From assembly GCA_012519205.1 (NCBI GenBank), contig JAAYQR010000026.1, positions 62,001-126,000 of the forward strand: a stretch of 64,000 bases of DNA, in the 5' to 3' direction. A model generated the notes under the pieces. It made no database searches. It was not told the DNA's origin and saw only the letters and a list, made by a program, of their open reading frames with translations. Source of the DNA: Candidatus Epulonipiscium sp. GTDB taxonomy: Bacteria > Bacillota > Clostridia > Lachnospirales > Defluviitaleaceae. The translations under genes and the position numbers were made by a program. The number at the start of each line of letters is the position of its first letter. The stretch's first letter is position 1. Below are positions 5,150 to 40,407 of this stretch, in pieces.

Positions 5150-7597
5150 TTGAATTTTATTTTTAATAAGGAAGAATTCAAAAAAGAAGTCATTGAGAAT
5201 ATCAAGACCTTATCAAGGAAGACAATTAATACAGCTTCAAAGCAAGAAATTTATCAGGCGGTTGCCTTTGTGCTTAGGGATCTAATTGTGGATAGATGGA
5301 TTGCTACCCATAAGGCTTATGAAGAACAAGACGGCAAGGTGCTTTATTATTTATCTATGGAATTTTTGATGGGTCGCGCCCTAGGAAATAACATAATTAA
5401 TATAATGGCAAAGGAAGAAATAAAAGAAGTCCTAGAAGAATTAGGTATTGATTATAATGATATAGAAGAAGAAGAACCTGATCCAGGTCTTGGAAATGGA
5501 GGACTTGGAAGGTTAGCTGCATGTTTTTTAGACTCCCTTTCTACTTTAGGGTATCCGGCTTATGGCTGTGGAATAAGGTATAGATATGGCATATTTGAGC
5601 AGAGAATTATAGACGGATATCAGGAGGAGTATCCCGATAATTGGCTGGAATACGGCAATCCATGGGAAGTGATGAGACCAGAGTATTCCTGTGAAGTAAG
5701 ATTTGGGGGTAATGTTAGGGTAGAAAAAAAGGAAAATGGAGAAGACAAGTTTATTCAAGAAAATTATCAATCGATAATCGCCATCCCCTATGATATACCT
5801 ATTACAGGCTATAATAATTATACGGTAAATACTTTAAGAATATGGGATGCTAGAGCAGTTAATAAATTTGACTTAAAGAAATTTGAGCAGGGAGATTATC
5901 AAAAGGCAGTAGAAGAACATAATCTGGCAGAAACCATAGTAAAAGTATTATATCCTAATGATAATCATATAAAGGGAAAAGAGTTAAGGTTAAGGCAGCA
6001 GTACTTTTTTATATCTGCCAGTGTGCAACAGGCGGTTAAAAAGTTCAAAGTAAACCATACCGATCTTAAAAAAATGCCGGAGAAAGTAGCCATCCAAATG
6101 AATGACACTCATCCGTCTATGGCAGCGGCAGAACTTATGAGAATTCTCTTGGATGAGGAGAACCTATCTTGGGGTGAAGCATGGGAGATTACCCAAGGAG
6201 TTTGTGCTTATACCAATCACACCATAATGTCCGAGGCCTTAGAAAAATGGCCTATTGAATTGTTTGAAAGACTTCTGCCAAGGATTTATCAAATAATAGA
6301 AGAAATTAACCGAAGGTTTTGCCTTAAACTTATGGAAACTTACAAATTTGATTCCGAAAAAATAAGAAGAATGGCTATTATCGCCGATGGGCAGGTTAAG
6401 ATGGCATACCTTGCCATAGAGGGAAGTCACTCCGTAAATGGAGTAGCAGCCCTTCATACCGAAATCTTAAAACATCAAGAATTAAAGGATTTCTATGAGA
6501 TATACCCTCATAAATTTAATAATAAAACTAATGGAATTACACAAAGAAGATGGCTACTAAAATCCAATCCAAAATTGGCAGATTTGATTACCAATACCAT
6601 AGGAGATAAGTGGATTACAGATTTATCAGAACTAAAGAAACTTATGATTTATAAAGAAGATGAAACCTTTAGAAAAGAGTTCATAGAAATAAAAAAACAT
6701 AACAAAATAAAATTGGCTGAATACATAAAAAAACACAATAACATAGATATTGACCCCGACTCTATTTATGATATCCAAATAAAAAGACTTCATGAATATA
6801 AAAGACAGCTTCTTAATATATTGCATGTTATGTATTTGTATAATAAACTTAAGGCTAATCCTAATATGGATTTTCATCCCCATACTTTCATATTTGGGGC
6901 AAAGGCATCCTCTGGTTATAGAAGTGCAAAATTAGTCATTAAATTAATTAATACCGTGGCAGATATTATTAATAATGACGTAGGCATTGGAGGTAGAATA
7001 AAAGTAGTATTCATAGAAAACTATAATGTATCCAGTGCAGAGAAATTATTCCCTGCAGCCGATATTAGTGAACAAATATCAACTGCAAGCAAAGAAGCAT
7101 CCGGTACGGGGAATATGAAATTTATGTTAAATGGAGCTGTTACTATAGGAACCCTTGATGGAGCCAATGTAGAAATAAAAGAAGAAGTAGGGAGCGATAA
7201 TATATTCATATTTGGTCTAACAGCTGAAGAAGTAATAAAATATTATAAGAACGGTGGGTATAACCCCTGGGATATTTATAATAGCAATGAAGATATTAGA
7301 TTGGTATTGACTCAGTTGATTAATGGATTTTTATGCAAGGAAAATCCAGAACTCTTTAGAGAGATATACGATAGTCTTTTAAATAATGGTGATTATTATT
7401 TCATATTAAAAGACTTTGAAAGTTATGCTGCTACTCATAGAAGGATGGCTGAAGTTTACAAGGATAGAAACCAATGGGTAAAAATTCAAATAGCAAATAC
7501 AGCCTCAAGTGGAAAATTTTCTAGCGATAGAACCATAGAGGAATATGCGAAGGAGATATGGAATCTAAGGCCTATTCCAATAGAATATGATAATTAA
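5150..7597 (+). CDS. glgP: Glycogen/maltodextrin phosphorylase (GT35)
   Basis: It phosphorolyses alpha-1,4-glucans to glucose 1-phosphate, mobilising glycogen. The start is TTG at 5150, spaced well from AATGGAGGG. The 815 residues are of normal family length. The N-terminal glycine-rich segment EEEPDPGLGNGGLGRLAACF and the pyridoxal-phosphate site EASGTGNMKFMLNGA (the Lys in GNMK) are intact, as is TLDGANVEI. Synthesis genes glgC and glgD are 50 kb away in this window; glgA and glgB are not seen. It is monocistronic, with its own terminator. Confidence 0.96.
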   Translation: MNFIFNKEEFKKEVIENIKTLSRKTINTASKQEIYQAVAFVLRDLIVDRWIATHKAYEEQDGKVLYYLSMEFLMGRALGNNIINIMAKEEIKEVLEELGIDYNDIEEEEPDPGLGNGGLGRLAACFLDSLSTLGYPAYGCGIRYRYGIFEQRIIDGYQEEYPDNWLEYGNPWEVMRPEYSCEVRFGGNVRVEKKENGEDKFIQENYQSIIAIPYDIPITGYNNYTVNTLRIWDARAVNKFDLKKFEQGDYQKAVEEHNLAETIVKVLYPNDNHIKGKELRLRQQYFFISASVQQAVKKFKVNHTDLKKMPEKVAIQMNDTHPSMAAAELMRILLDEENLSWGEAWEITQGVCAYTNHTIMSEALEKWPIELFERLLPRIYQIIEEINRRFCLKLMETYKFDSEKIRRMAIIADGQVKMAYLAIEGSHSVNGVAALHTEILKHQELKDFYEIYPHKFNNKTNGITQRRWLLKSNPKLADLITNTIGDKWITDLSELKKLMIYKEDETFRKEFIEIKKHNKIKLAEYIKKHNNIDIDPDSIYDIQIKRLHEYKRQLLNILHVMYLYNKLKANPNMDFHPHTFIFGAKASSGYRSAKLVIKLINTVADIINNDVGIGGRIKVVFIENYNVSSAEKLFPAADISEQISTASKEASGTGNMKFMLNGAVTIGTLDGANVEIKEEVGSDNIFIFGLTAEEVIKYYKNGGYNPWDIYNSNEDIRLVLTQLINGFLCKENPELFREIYDSLLNNGDYYFILKDFESYAATHRRMAEVYKDRNQWVKIQIANTASSGKFSSDRTIEEYAKEIWNLRPIPIEYDN

Positions 7598-7599
7598 AT

Positions 7600-7624
7600 C
7601 CCCTAAATTTTAGGGGGTTTTTTA
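7600..7624 (+). terminator. Terminator after glgP
   Basis: The CCCCTAAA/TTTAGGGG stem is followed by a T run directly after the stop codon. Confidence 0.85.
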
Positions 7625-7709
7625 TTGCTTCTATTATTAATATGAACCAAACGGGCCAAAGGGCATATATTATTATTGGATACAAAACATATATAAAGGA
7701 GGATAAAGA

Positions 7710-8357
7710 ATGTCCCAAGAATTTGAACAAGATAGAGTAAATTGTAAAGAGCAAAAGGCGGTGCAGCAACCGATGATGCAGCAACCGATGATGCAGCAAC
7801 CGATGATGCAGCAACCAATGATGCAGCAACCGATGATGCAGCAACCAATGATGCAGCAGCCAATGATGCAGCAGCCGGGTATGCAGTGCCCGTCGACACA
7901 TCAAGGAGCATGTCCTAATATGCATCAAGGAATACAACAGCCGATGATGCAGTGTAATATGTCTGGTATGGACGATTTAGATGAAAGAGATATGGTATAT
8001 ATGAAGAAAATGTATCCTGAATTATGTCAAAGGATACAAGGATATGTAGAAGGCGAATGTGATAGGATGGATTACAGTGGAAGTCCTATGTATGAAGACT
8101 ATCCTGACCAAGAGAGTGTAGAACAGATGGTAGATAGGGTATACGAAAGAATAAAAAGTGAAATGCCAGAAGTTCTAAGCGAAGGGGATATGGATAGACA
8201 GGGCGTTCCAAGAAATAGGTTAGTTCGTTCATTAGCAGGTGCATTATTACTTACAGAGTTATTTGGAAGAAGAAGGGGGTATAGGAGAAGGTATCCTTTT
8301 TATTATGGAACCGGCTATGGTTATCCATATTATCAATATCCCTACCCATATTATTAA
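7710..8357 (+). CDS. Repeat-rich protein, spore-coat-like
   Basis: This 215-residue protein starts at an ATG behind AAAGGAGG. It has three parts: an N-terminal low-complexity tract of eight QQPMM-type repeats (about residues 19-58); a conserved-looking acidic segment (about 90-155: DERDMVYMKKMYPELC..., then a helix ending in MPEVL); and a basic, tyrosine-rich tail (GRRRGYRRRYPFYYG... ending PYPYY). Tyr/Gly/Pro-rich tails and QQP repeats are common in clostridial spore-coat and exosporium proteins. I recognise the middle segment as a recurrent clostridial hypothetical family, but cannot name a function. It has no signal peptide. Confidence 0.75.
   Translation: MSQEFEQDRVNCKEQKAVQQPMMQQPMMQQPMMQQPMMQQPMMQQPMMQQPMMQQPGMQCPSTHQGACPNMHQGIQQPMMQCNMSGMDDLDERDMVYMKKMYPELCQRIQGYVEGECDRMDYSGSPMYEDYPDQESVEQMVDRVYERIKSEMPEVLSEGDMDRQGVPRNRLVRSLAGALLLTELFGRRRGYRRRYPFYYGTGYGYPYYQYPYPYY
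7764..7877 (+). repeat. 15-bp in-frame tandem repeat
   Basis: About seven and a half copies of the 15-mer CAGCAACCGATGATG encode QQPMM units. Copies differ only at a few third positions (CCG/CCA, CAA/CAG), which suggests recent expansion by slippage. Confidence 0.95.
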
Positions 8358-10604: not shown

Positions 10605-10892
10605 ATAAAGGCTATGAAAAGAAGAGTAGTAAATTATTCTTTTAAAGAGAGCTCCATTAGGTGAAAAGGAGTAAAGAGTAATTTGTCGAACCAAGACTTG
10701 GAGCCGCATACGGATTTTTATAATTTTTTATAGAATGATGATATGTCGGGAGTTCCCGTTATAGAACTAGGGTATAAGTATACAATACCGTACCCAAAAG
10801 ATTAATATGGCAACATATTAGTAAAATAAGGTGGCACCACGAAGCAGCGCTCTCGTCCTTAAGATGATAAATCTTGGACGGGGGCTTTTTTA
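10605..10892 (+). ncRNA. T-box leader with a glutamine-like specifier
   Basis: Stem I is clear: AAATTATTCT (10631-10640) pairs with AGAGTAATTT (10675-10684), with AGUA on the 5' side of the specifier loop. The loop reads C-GAA-C-CAA-G-A. In the register shared with the ileS leader (GAA-N-codon-purine), the specifier is CAA (10692-10694), a Gln codon, not ATG. The T-box sequence AAGGTGGCACCAC (10828-10840) has C after TGG, which pairs with a G73 discriminator, as in tRNA-Gln; tRNA-Met has A73. The terminator at 10849-10892 ends the leader. Confidence 0.85.
10849..10892 (+). terminator. T-box attenuator terminator
   Basis: GCTCTCGTCC pairs with GGACGGGGGC across a short inner stem, followed by a T run (10886-10891), 44 bp before the start codon. 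Confidence 0.85.
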
Positions 10893-10935
10893 TTCTTGAG
10901 ATTTTTTACAATTAATATAAAAGGAGATAGATATA

Positions 10936-12894
10936 ATGAAAAAAGATATAACCAATACAACAAGGCCTACATTTCCCAAAAGAGCTATAATCACCGGGGG
11001 AATGCCCTATGGAAATAAGGAGCTGCATTTTGGACATATAGGAGGAATGTTTGTCCATGCCGATGTATTTACAAGATTTTTAAGGGATCGTATAGGAAAA
11101 GAAAATGTTATATTCGTTTCAGGAACAGACTGCTATGGTTCCCCTATATTTGAAAATTATCGTCGTTTGATAAAAGAAGGTGAATTTACGGGCACCATCG
11201 ATGAATTTGTAGAACAAAATCATAAAAAACAAAAGGAAGTATTAGATGCATATGATATTTCTCTAAATTTTTATGGGGCTTCAAGTTTTGGTGATGCTGC
11301 TGATATTCATAGAGAAACCTCTGATGAATTTATTAATACTTTGTATAGGAATGGGTATTTATCCAAAATTACAACCTCTCAATTCTATGATTCGGAATTA
11401 GATGTTTTATTAAATGGCAGACAAGTAATAGGACAATGTCCTATAGAAGGCTGTTCTTCGGAAAAAGCGTATGCCGATGAATGTTCCTTAGGTCATCAAT
11501 ACATGCCAAAGGATTTGATTAATCCCAAAAGTACATTAACAGGGAAAAAGCCTGAGATGAGAGATGTGATTAATTGGTACTTTAATCTAGAGGATTTTAA
11601 CGAAAATATAAAGGAATGGATAGATGAGATTAAGAAGAAACCTAACACCCGTAAACTATTGATAAAGGCCATAGAAGAATTTATTAAGCCCCCTATGATT
11701 TATGTAAAAAAGGACCAAATAGATGAATTAAATGCTATTACGGATATGCCTCCGTACACCCTGTCGGAAGAAGGAAAAAGCTCTGTTACCTTAATTTTTG
11801 ATAATTTAGATGATAGGGATAAGGCATCTCAGGCTTTATCGGATAAAGCAATCCGCTTTAGAACAGGAAAGACCCTAGTGCCTTTCCGTCTTACAGGAAA
11901 CATAGAATGGGGAGTGCCTGCTCCAGCTATCGAGAACATAGAAAACTTAACCTTCTGGGTATGGCCTGAATCCCTTTGGGCGCCCATTTCTTTTACTAAA
12001 GCTTATTTAAACCAATCCGATAAAGATTTAGGCAGCTGGGAAGATTGGTGGTGCTCTAAGGATTCATCTATTTATCAATTTATAGGGGAGGACAATATCT
12101 ATTTTTATGGTCTTGCAGAAATAGGTATGTTTATGGGGATGAAAAAAGAGCTCAATCTTCCCATATTGGTCCCTAATAGCCATATCCTATTTTTAGATAA
12201 AAAGGCAAGTAGCAGTGGTAAAGTAAAACCTCCTATGGCAGGAGAATTATTAGATTATTACACTGCTGAACAACTAAGAGCTCATTTTATAAGTTTAGGC
12301 CTTGCTAATAGAAGTGTGGGATTCCAACCAAAACCCTTAAATCCAAAGGCCACAGAAAAAGATAGCGATCCAGCTCTTAAAGAGGGTAATCTCCTTACTA
12401 ATGTATTCAATAGGGTTATTCGTTCTAGCTTCTATACGGTTCAACAACACTACGATGGGAAAATACCCGTAGGAGAAGTTAGTAAAGAAGTATTAGAAGA
12501 TGCAAAAAATATCATTCTTGAATATGAAATGCTGATGTACAAATACGAATTCAATACTCTAACCTACTCAATGGATATTTATATCCGTAATATTAATAAA
12601 TATTGGGTAAAAAACATAAAGATAGCAGAACAAACCAAAGACAGCGAATTTCATAAGCAGGTAATAATAGATACCTTCCATATGATTCGAACTGCAGCAA
12701 TCCTTATGCATCCTATCGCCCCAGAAGGCACAGAAATGCTTAGAGACTACCTTAACTTCGGTGAGGAATTTTGGAGCTGGGATAGAATATTTGATACCAT
12801 ATACAATTTTATGGAAGACAAGGAAAATCACCCCGTAAAATTCTTAGAACCTAGGGTAGACTTTTTCGAAAAACATCCAAGTCAGCTAGGATAG
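10936..12894 (+). CDS. MetRS-like class I aminoacyl-tRNA synthetase paralogue
   Basis: This 652-residue protein has the MetG fold: HFGH at 31-34 (HIGH), a Cys-rich knuckle (about 168-187), WGVPAP near 325-330 and a degenerate KMSKS, KASSS (423-427). About 70 residues (roughly 250-320) are inserted before WGVPAP. Hand alignment to E. coli MetRS keeps Tyr15 (Y25), Asp52 (D65) and Trp253 (W343). The other methionine-pocket residues are changed: His301 to Tyr391, and the A256/P257/Y260 segment to a different loop. No MetRS anticodon-domain Trp was checked. Its T-box does not read as Met. The real substrate is unknown; 'class I tRNA ligase family protein' is the safe name. Confidence 0.8.
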   Translation: MKKDITNTTRPTFPKRAIITGGMPYGNKELHFGHIGGMFVHADVFTRFLRDRIGKENVIFVSGTDCYGSPIFENYRRLIKEGEFTGTIDEFVEQNHKKQKEVLDAYDISLNFYGASSFGDAADIHRETSDEFINTLYRNGYLSKITTSQFYDSELDVLLNGRQVIGQCPIEGCSSEKAYADECSLGHQYMPKDLINPKSTLTGKKPEMRDVINWYFNLEDFNENIKEWIDEIKKKPNTRKLLIKAIEEFIKPPMIYVKKDQIDELNAITDMPPYTLSEEGKSSVTLIFDNLDDRDKASQALSDKAIRFRTGKTLVPFRLTGNIEWGVPAPAIENIENLTFWVWPESLWAPISFTKAYLNQSDKDLGSWEDWWCSKDSSIYQFIGEDNIYFYGLAEIGMFMGMKKELNLPILVPNSHILFLDKKASSSGKVKPPMAGELLDYYTAEQLRAHFISLGLANRSVGFQPKPLNPKATEKDSDPALKEGNLLTNVFNRVIRSSFYTVQQHYDGKIPVGEVSKEVLEDAKNIILEYEMLMYKYEFNTLTYSMDIYIRNINKYWVKNIKIAEQTKDSEFHKQVIIDTFHMIRTAAILMHPIAPEGTEMLRDYLNFGEEFWSWDRIFDTIYNFMEDKENHPVKFLEPRVDFFEKHPSQLG

Positions 12895-40335: not shown

Positions 40336-40407
40336 TGGGTAGTTGCCAAGCGGTAAGGCTCAGGATTCTGACTCCTGCATGCGAAGGTTCGAATCCTTCC
40401 TACCCAG
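40336..40407 (+). tRNA. tRNA-Gln (CTG)
   Basis: The acceptor stem TGGGTAG/CTACCCA, D arm, anticodon arm CAGGA-TTCTGAC-TCCTG with anticodon CTG (40368-40370), and T loop GGTTCGAATCC are all present. The discriminator is G73 (40407). CCA is not encoded (TCA follows). Confidence 0.95.

Follow-up and report, generated by a model that had tools for sequence, protein, structure and literature searches.

The window analysed here is a stretch of 64,000 nucleotides from the genome of a Candidatus Epulonipiscium species. One of its genes (10936–12894) encodes a 652-residue protein of the methionyl-tRNA synthetase (MetRS) fold, predicted here to be a glutaminyl-tRNA synthetase (GlnRS). It is preceded by a T-box leader extending from stem I to the antiterminator (10605–10863) and by an intrinsic terminator, a hairpin with its U-run (10849–10891), which competes with the antiterminator; the open reading frame begins ca. 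45 bases beyond the terminator. All of these features, and the tRNA gene described below, are on the forward strand. Farther upstream, a repeat-rich ORF with MMQQP repeats (7572–8357), overlapped by opposite-strand frames, looks like a low-complexity coat-type protein.

The leader matches the Rfam T-box covariance model RF00230 over its full length (model positions 1–219 of 219) with 95.3 bits, against a gathering score of 93 (E 1.2e-19), and the hairpin at 10849–10885 plus the U-run folds with −21.3 kcal/mol (z −6.3). A specifier codon, a bulge fitting the G73 tRNA-Gln(UUG) of the host and the competing terminator are all found. The specifier loop (10688–10695) consists of GAA (10688–10690), C, the glutamine codon CAA (10692–10694) and a stacking purine, G (10695); ATG is not placed in the specifier position. 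The same register, codon-purine-helix, was tried on the genome's remaining T-boxes, the genes downstream of which were named by reading translations, not by family search. It yields the expected amino acid for Leu (leuS, leuA), Val (valS), Trp (trpB, trpE), Cys (cysE), Tyr (two tyrS), Ile (ileS), Gly, Thr, Ser, Phe, and Pro – the exceptions are the ilvB T-box, which is ambiguous, and that of a hisS-like gene (L022), which has an Asp specifier. Altogether, the 2.1 Mb genome has 17 T-boxes (L019–L035), and two of these (L026, L035) precede separate tyrosyl-tRNA synthetase genes.

A T-box is recognisable in 11 leaders of the MetRS-like gene, that of the window and those of 10 orthologues, while the motif is absent from the other 24 of the 35 loci in genomes that carry the gene, up to 900 bases upstream. 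Ten of the 11, the window's included, have the specifier CAA, in the motif GAA-N-CAA-G with N being A, C or G; the eleventh has the synonymous CAG, in GAA-G-CAG-G, and none has ATG. The variable base before CAA excludes readings as Asn (AAC) and Pro (CCA). A reading as Lys (AAG) is out as well – it becomes AGG in one leader (L045), and the base that follows it is no conserved purine. Because CAA or CAG is conserved while the preceding base varies, it is close to certain that the leader reads glutamine. The preliminary description of this DNA had proposed CAA and preferred it to AAC and CCA, and the comparison of leaders confirms both the codon and the preference.

The T-box bulge, UGGC (10832–10835), is complementary to the GCCA of a tRNA-Gln with G73. 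The preliminary description had taken the C after UGG as evidence for tRNA-Gln over tRNA-Met, and the bases on which it relied are as described: every tRNA-Gln gene found in the window's genome has G73, as do all tRNA-Gln in the genomes examined, and every tRNA-Met of the window's genome has A73. The argument is weaker than first stated, because the base after UGG is C in 4 of the 11 leaders and U, which would form a G:U wobble with G73, in 7. Within this genome, the trpB T-box provides an example of a G:U pair at the bulge site, with U facing the G73 of a tRNA, and such wobble pairs are reported for 46% of Trp T-boxes (PMC7778990). Of the three tRNA-Gln genes in the genome, the single one for tRNA-Gln(CUG), with G73, is in the window (40336–40407), and the two for tRNA-Gln(UUG), the better fit to CAA, are elsewhere. 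The end pair of tRNA-Gln is U1-A72 in the window's genome and apparently A1-U72 in some other carriers of the MetRS-like gene (L118 and L132 of G039; L124 and L125 of G291 and G383), possibly an adaptation to a different enzyme.

The protein is a member of the class Ia MetRS superfamily. It matches PF09334 with 220 bits, has the HIGH motif as HFGH (residues 31–34, 11026–11037), and in the PDB matches the Pyrococcus MetRS 1rqg (E 1e-51). Against the metG equivalog models it scores 244 of 587 bits, 192 of 336 bits, and lower for the others, no more than 57% of any cut-off, and it has no match to the canonical GlnRS model TIGR00440 at E up to 1. A separate, strongly scoring MetRS gene is found elsewhere in the genome (C25, 398 bits). 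A tree separates the MetRS-like family from the sampled MetRS by a branch with 91/97 support, though few MetRS were sampled and the branches are long.

Residues were numbered against an E. coli MetRS sequence that agrees with the PDB alignment where the two overlap. The zinc knuckle (Cys168, Cys173, Cys183 and His187; 11437–11496) is invariant in the family alignment (A1). Across 34 family members the HIGH motif, the zinc ligands and the equivalents of Tyr15 and Asp52 are kept; in MetRS these elements hold ATP, the metal and the amino acid backbone. The side-chain pocket has changed. Asn387, Tyr391 and Glu395 (12094–12120) stand at the positions of E. coli Ile297, His301 and Trp305, in an alignment that is ambiguous around E. 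coli Ala256–Tyr260; the Asn and the Tyr are present in 34 of 34 members and the Glu in 26 of 34. This Asn/Tyr/mostly-Glu pocket is a polar set that, judged from sequence, could hold an amide. The assignment rests on alignment because an AlphaFold2 model built from nine sequences was poor, its confidence too low for use (pLDDT 56, pTM 0.44). KMSKS is replaced by KASSS (residues 423–427, 12202–12216), and its second lysine is absent; human TyrRS, with KMSSS, has likewise lost this lysine and uses potassium instead. In the anticodon domain the equivalents of Asn391 and Arg395 are invariant, while Trp461, which in MetRS stacks on C34 of tRNA-Met, is lost (Ile563 in the window's protein). An insertion of ca. 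70 residues (251–319, 11686–11892) is specific to the family, being absent, in alignments, from the MetRS of E. coli and from that of the window's genome. Tyr391, KASSS and the insertion had been put forward in the preliminary description as departures from MetRS, and all three are present as described.

Formation of Gln-tRNA has been described as following two routes: GlnRS, or GluRS plus an amidotransferase. No match to GatB is found in the window's genome, which is 98.75% complete, while control genomes match as expected, and its single gene of the GluRS/GlnRS superfamily (PF00749), a frame of 498 codons, scores far under the GlnRS cut-off. With GatB and GlnRS absent and one GltX, there is no known route to Gln-tRNA(Gln) in this genome. 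Its three tRNA-Gln genes mean that glutamine codons are read and that some enzyme must charge these tRNAs.

GlnS (TIGR00440) and GatB (TIGR00133) were scored in 119 genomes, 35 carriers of the MetRS-like gene and 84 non-carriers; most are drafts, absences rest on genome searches, and GatCAB was scored through GatB only. Canonical GlnRS is encoded in 6 of the 35 carriers vs. 76 of the 84 non-carriers (Fisher p 8e-15). The MetRS-like gene is present where GlnRS and GatCAB, judged by GatB, are lacking – 11 of the 35 carriers have neither, vs. 1 of the 84 non-carriers (p 4e-6). Because related genomes are not independent, permutation within taxonomic families was also run, with p < 1e-5 for GlnRS and p = 2e-4 for the lack of both GlnRS and GatB. 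The one non-carrier without GlnS and GatB (G086) is 88% complete with 5% contamination; it is probably incomplete and could hide another route.

All 7 other sampled genomes of the window's own family have GlnS, and none has the MetRS-like gene. Within one genus (g45), G048 has the MetRS-like gene and no GlnS, and G069 has the reverse. Nine of nine carriers from a second collection, Coriobacteriia included, are without GlnS, and eight of the nine have GatB. Six carriers encode canonical GlnRS too (G014, G183, G253, G291, G360, G383), and GatB is present in 23 of the 35; the MetRS-like gene is thus not the sole possible route in most carriers. Where it coexists with GlnS or GatB, it may be a second GlnRS or may mark a stage before the loss of the older one.

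Orthologues of the gene were found in 25 other genomes among 392 of the order, in 9 further genomes and in three named plasmid-collection records. None of the phage records covers 80% of the protein, and their partial MetRS-like matches are below 60% identity. No conserved operon partner beyond gltX was found in six regions examined; in one genus gatB lies ca. 12 kb or less from the gene, and unrelated genes separate the two. At four loci gltX adjoins the MetRS-like gene. In Monoglobus pectinilyticus the MetRS-like gene starts 48 bases past gltX on the same strand, in Ruminococcus albus 7 the plasmid pRUMAL02 has a GluRS-family gene, one small gene and then the MetRS-like gene, and at two loci in Coriobacteriia gltX is its convergent neighbour. 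The Ruminococcus albus 7 homologue has the accession WP_013483668. Proximity to a GluRS gene is consistent with a glutamine enzyme. The adjoining GluRS at two of these loci (L188, 4265–5911; L189, 131–1789) is divergent, with ca. 550 residues and ca. 30% identity to the GltX of the window's genome, and scores just above or below the gltX_bact cut-off. In pRUMAL02 (L189, NC_014825.1, 131–4468) the GluRS-family and MetRS-like genes are together on a conjugative plasmid, which suggests that the pair can move between strains.

Taken with the comparative evidence, the ORF is probably a glutaminyl-tRNA synthetase of MetRS descent, independent of the GluRS-related GlnRS. No other reading accounts at once for the T-box, the missing pathway, the exclusion of GlnS and the gltX neighbours, which is why this one is favoured. 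The preliminary description had gone as far as a new enzyme-regulator pairing, a MetRS-fold protein with a T-box that reads glutamine; the glutamine specifiers in all 11 T-box leaders support that pairing, and a specific enzymatic function is likelier than the mere pairing because the GlnRS/GatCAB route is missing. The predicted enzyme would use ATP to activate glutamine, in a Rossmann site of MetRS type, before its transfer to tRNA-Gln, and would take the place of GlnRS as well as of the route through GluRS and GatCAB. In the window's lineage, uncharged tRNA-Gln(UUG) would pair with the CAA specifier and with the UGGC of the leader and stabilise the antiterminator, so that the gene would be on when Gln-tRNA is low. 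Glutaminylation of tRNA-Gln, a pocket for glutamine and induction of the gene are predictions of this reading. On a broader scale, it is likely, if a little less so, that a second, non-orthologous GlnRS arose from MetRS and occurs sporadically in Clostridia and Coriobacteriia, and that some of these bacteria depend on it alone for Gln-tRNA(Gln).

Three other explanations were weighed. The six carriers that also have GlnRS, the sporadic distribution and the copy on the conjugative Ruminococcus albus plasmid would all suit an accessory enzyme, induced by starvation and acting on tRNA-Gln without being the main maker of Gln-tRNA – one that charges another amino acid in adaptive mistranslation, for example, or serves a peptide pathway. 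Such an enzyme would leave 11 carriers without any other visible route to Gln-tRNA(Gln), it would not account for GlnRS being missing specifically where the MetRS-like gene is present, and the gene is mostly alone or beside gltX, with no pathway partner; this explanation is unlikely. Fold and sequence ancestry are what a paralogue of MetRS would show, such as an inhibitor-resistant MetRS whose leader reads glutamine by drift or appears to through mis-alignment. Yet the glutamine specifier is conserved in 11 leaders, the same genome has a canonical MetRS, and Ile297, His301, Trp305, Trp461 and KMSKS have all been replaced while Asn387 and Tyr391 are invariant, all of which makes a MetRS paralogue hardly credible.

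A role outside translation is the remaining alternative, in which an adenylate-forming enzyme would make a glutamine-derived product and be regulated by the glutamine supply via tRNA-Gln. T-boxes do control biosynthetic genes, here trpB, leuA, ilvB and cysE, and some synthetase paralogues, AsnA for example, are adenylate-forming enzymes with no part in translation. The C-terminal anticodon-binding region is present in this protein, however, with its Asn391 and Arg395 equivalents invariant, and Gln-tRNA formation in the 11 genomes would be left unexplained, so that such a role is quite improbable.

The predicted GlnRS of MetRS descent can be set beside several known systems. With MetRS (PF09334/PRK00133 type, as in E. 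coli and Pyrococcus abyssi, 1rqg) it shares the class Ia Rossmann fold, HIGH, the zinc knuckle, the alpha-amino-group residues Tyr15 and Asp52 and a C-terminal helical anticodon domain with Asn391 and Arg395, and it differs in its pocket, KMSKS and Trp461, in the insertion and in the glutamine T-box. Canonical GlnS (TIGR00440), a class Ib enzyme derived from GluRS, has the reaction predicted here (Gln + ATP + tRNA-Gln to Gln-tRNA-Gln) but is of another subclass and ancestry, and the two genes are largely mutually exclusive across genomes. GluRS with GatCAB is likewise a source of Gln-tRNA-Gln in many bacteria, although by an indirect, two-step route, and GatB is missing from the window's genome. 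The class I and class II LysRS are a case of one specificity served by two unrelated synthetases (PMC2916919); unlike that pair, both forms for glutamine would be class I, from different subclasses.

No report of the MetRS-like family or of a MetRS-derived GlnRS was found in the open-licence literature. A survey of Gln-tRNA formation in bacteria recognises five classes, each with GlnRS or GatCAB (PMC3927822). If the prediction is true, genomes with one GluRS, no GlnRS and no GatCAB would form a class outside that scheme, and the MetRS-derived GlnRS would be a third route to Gln-tRNA. Glutamine would then be among the very few amino-acid specificities invented twice in synthetases, and efforts to engineer synthetase specificity would have a new enzyme to start from. 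Proteins that at present bear no annotation beyond 'class I tRNA ligase family protein', in Ruminococcus, Monoglobus, Collinsella and elsewhere, would then also gain a function.
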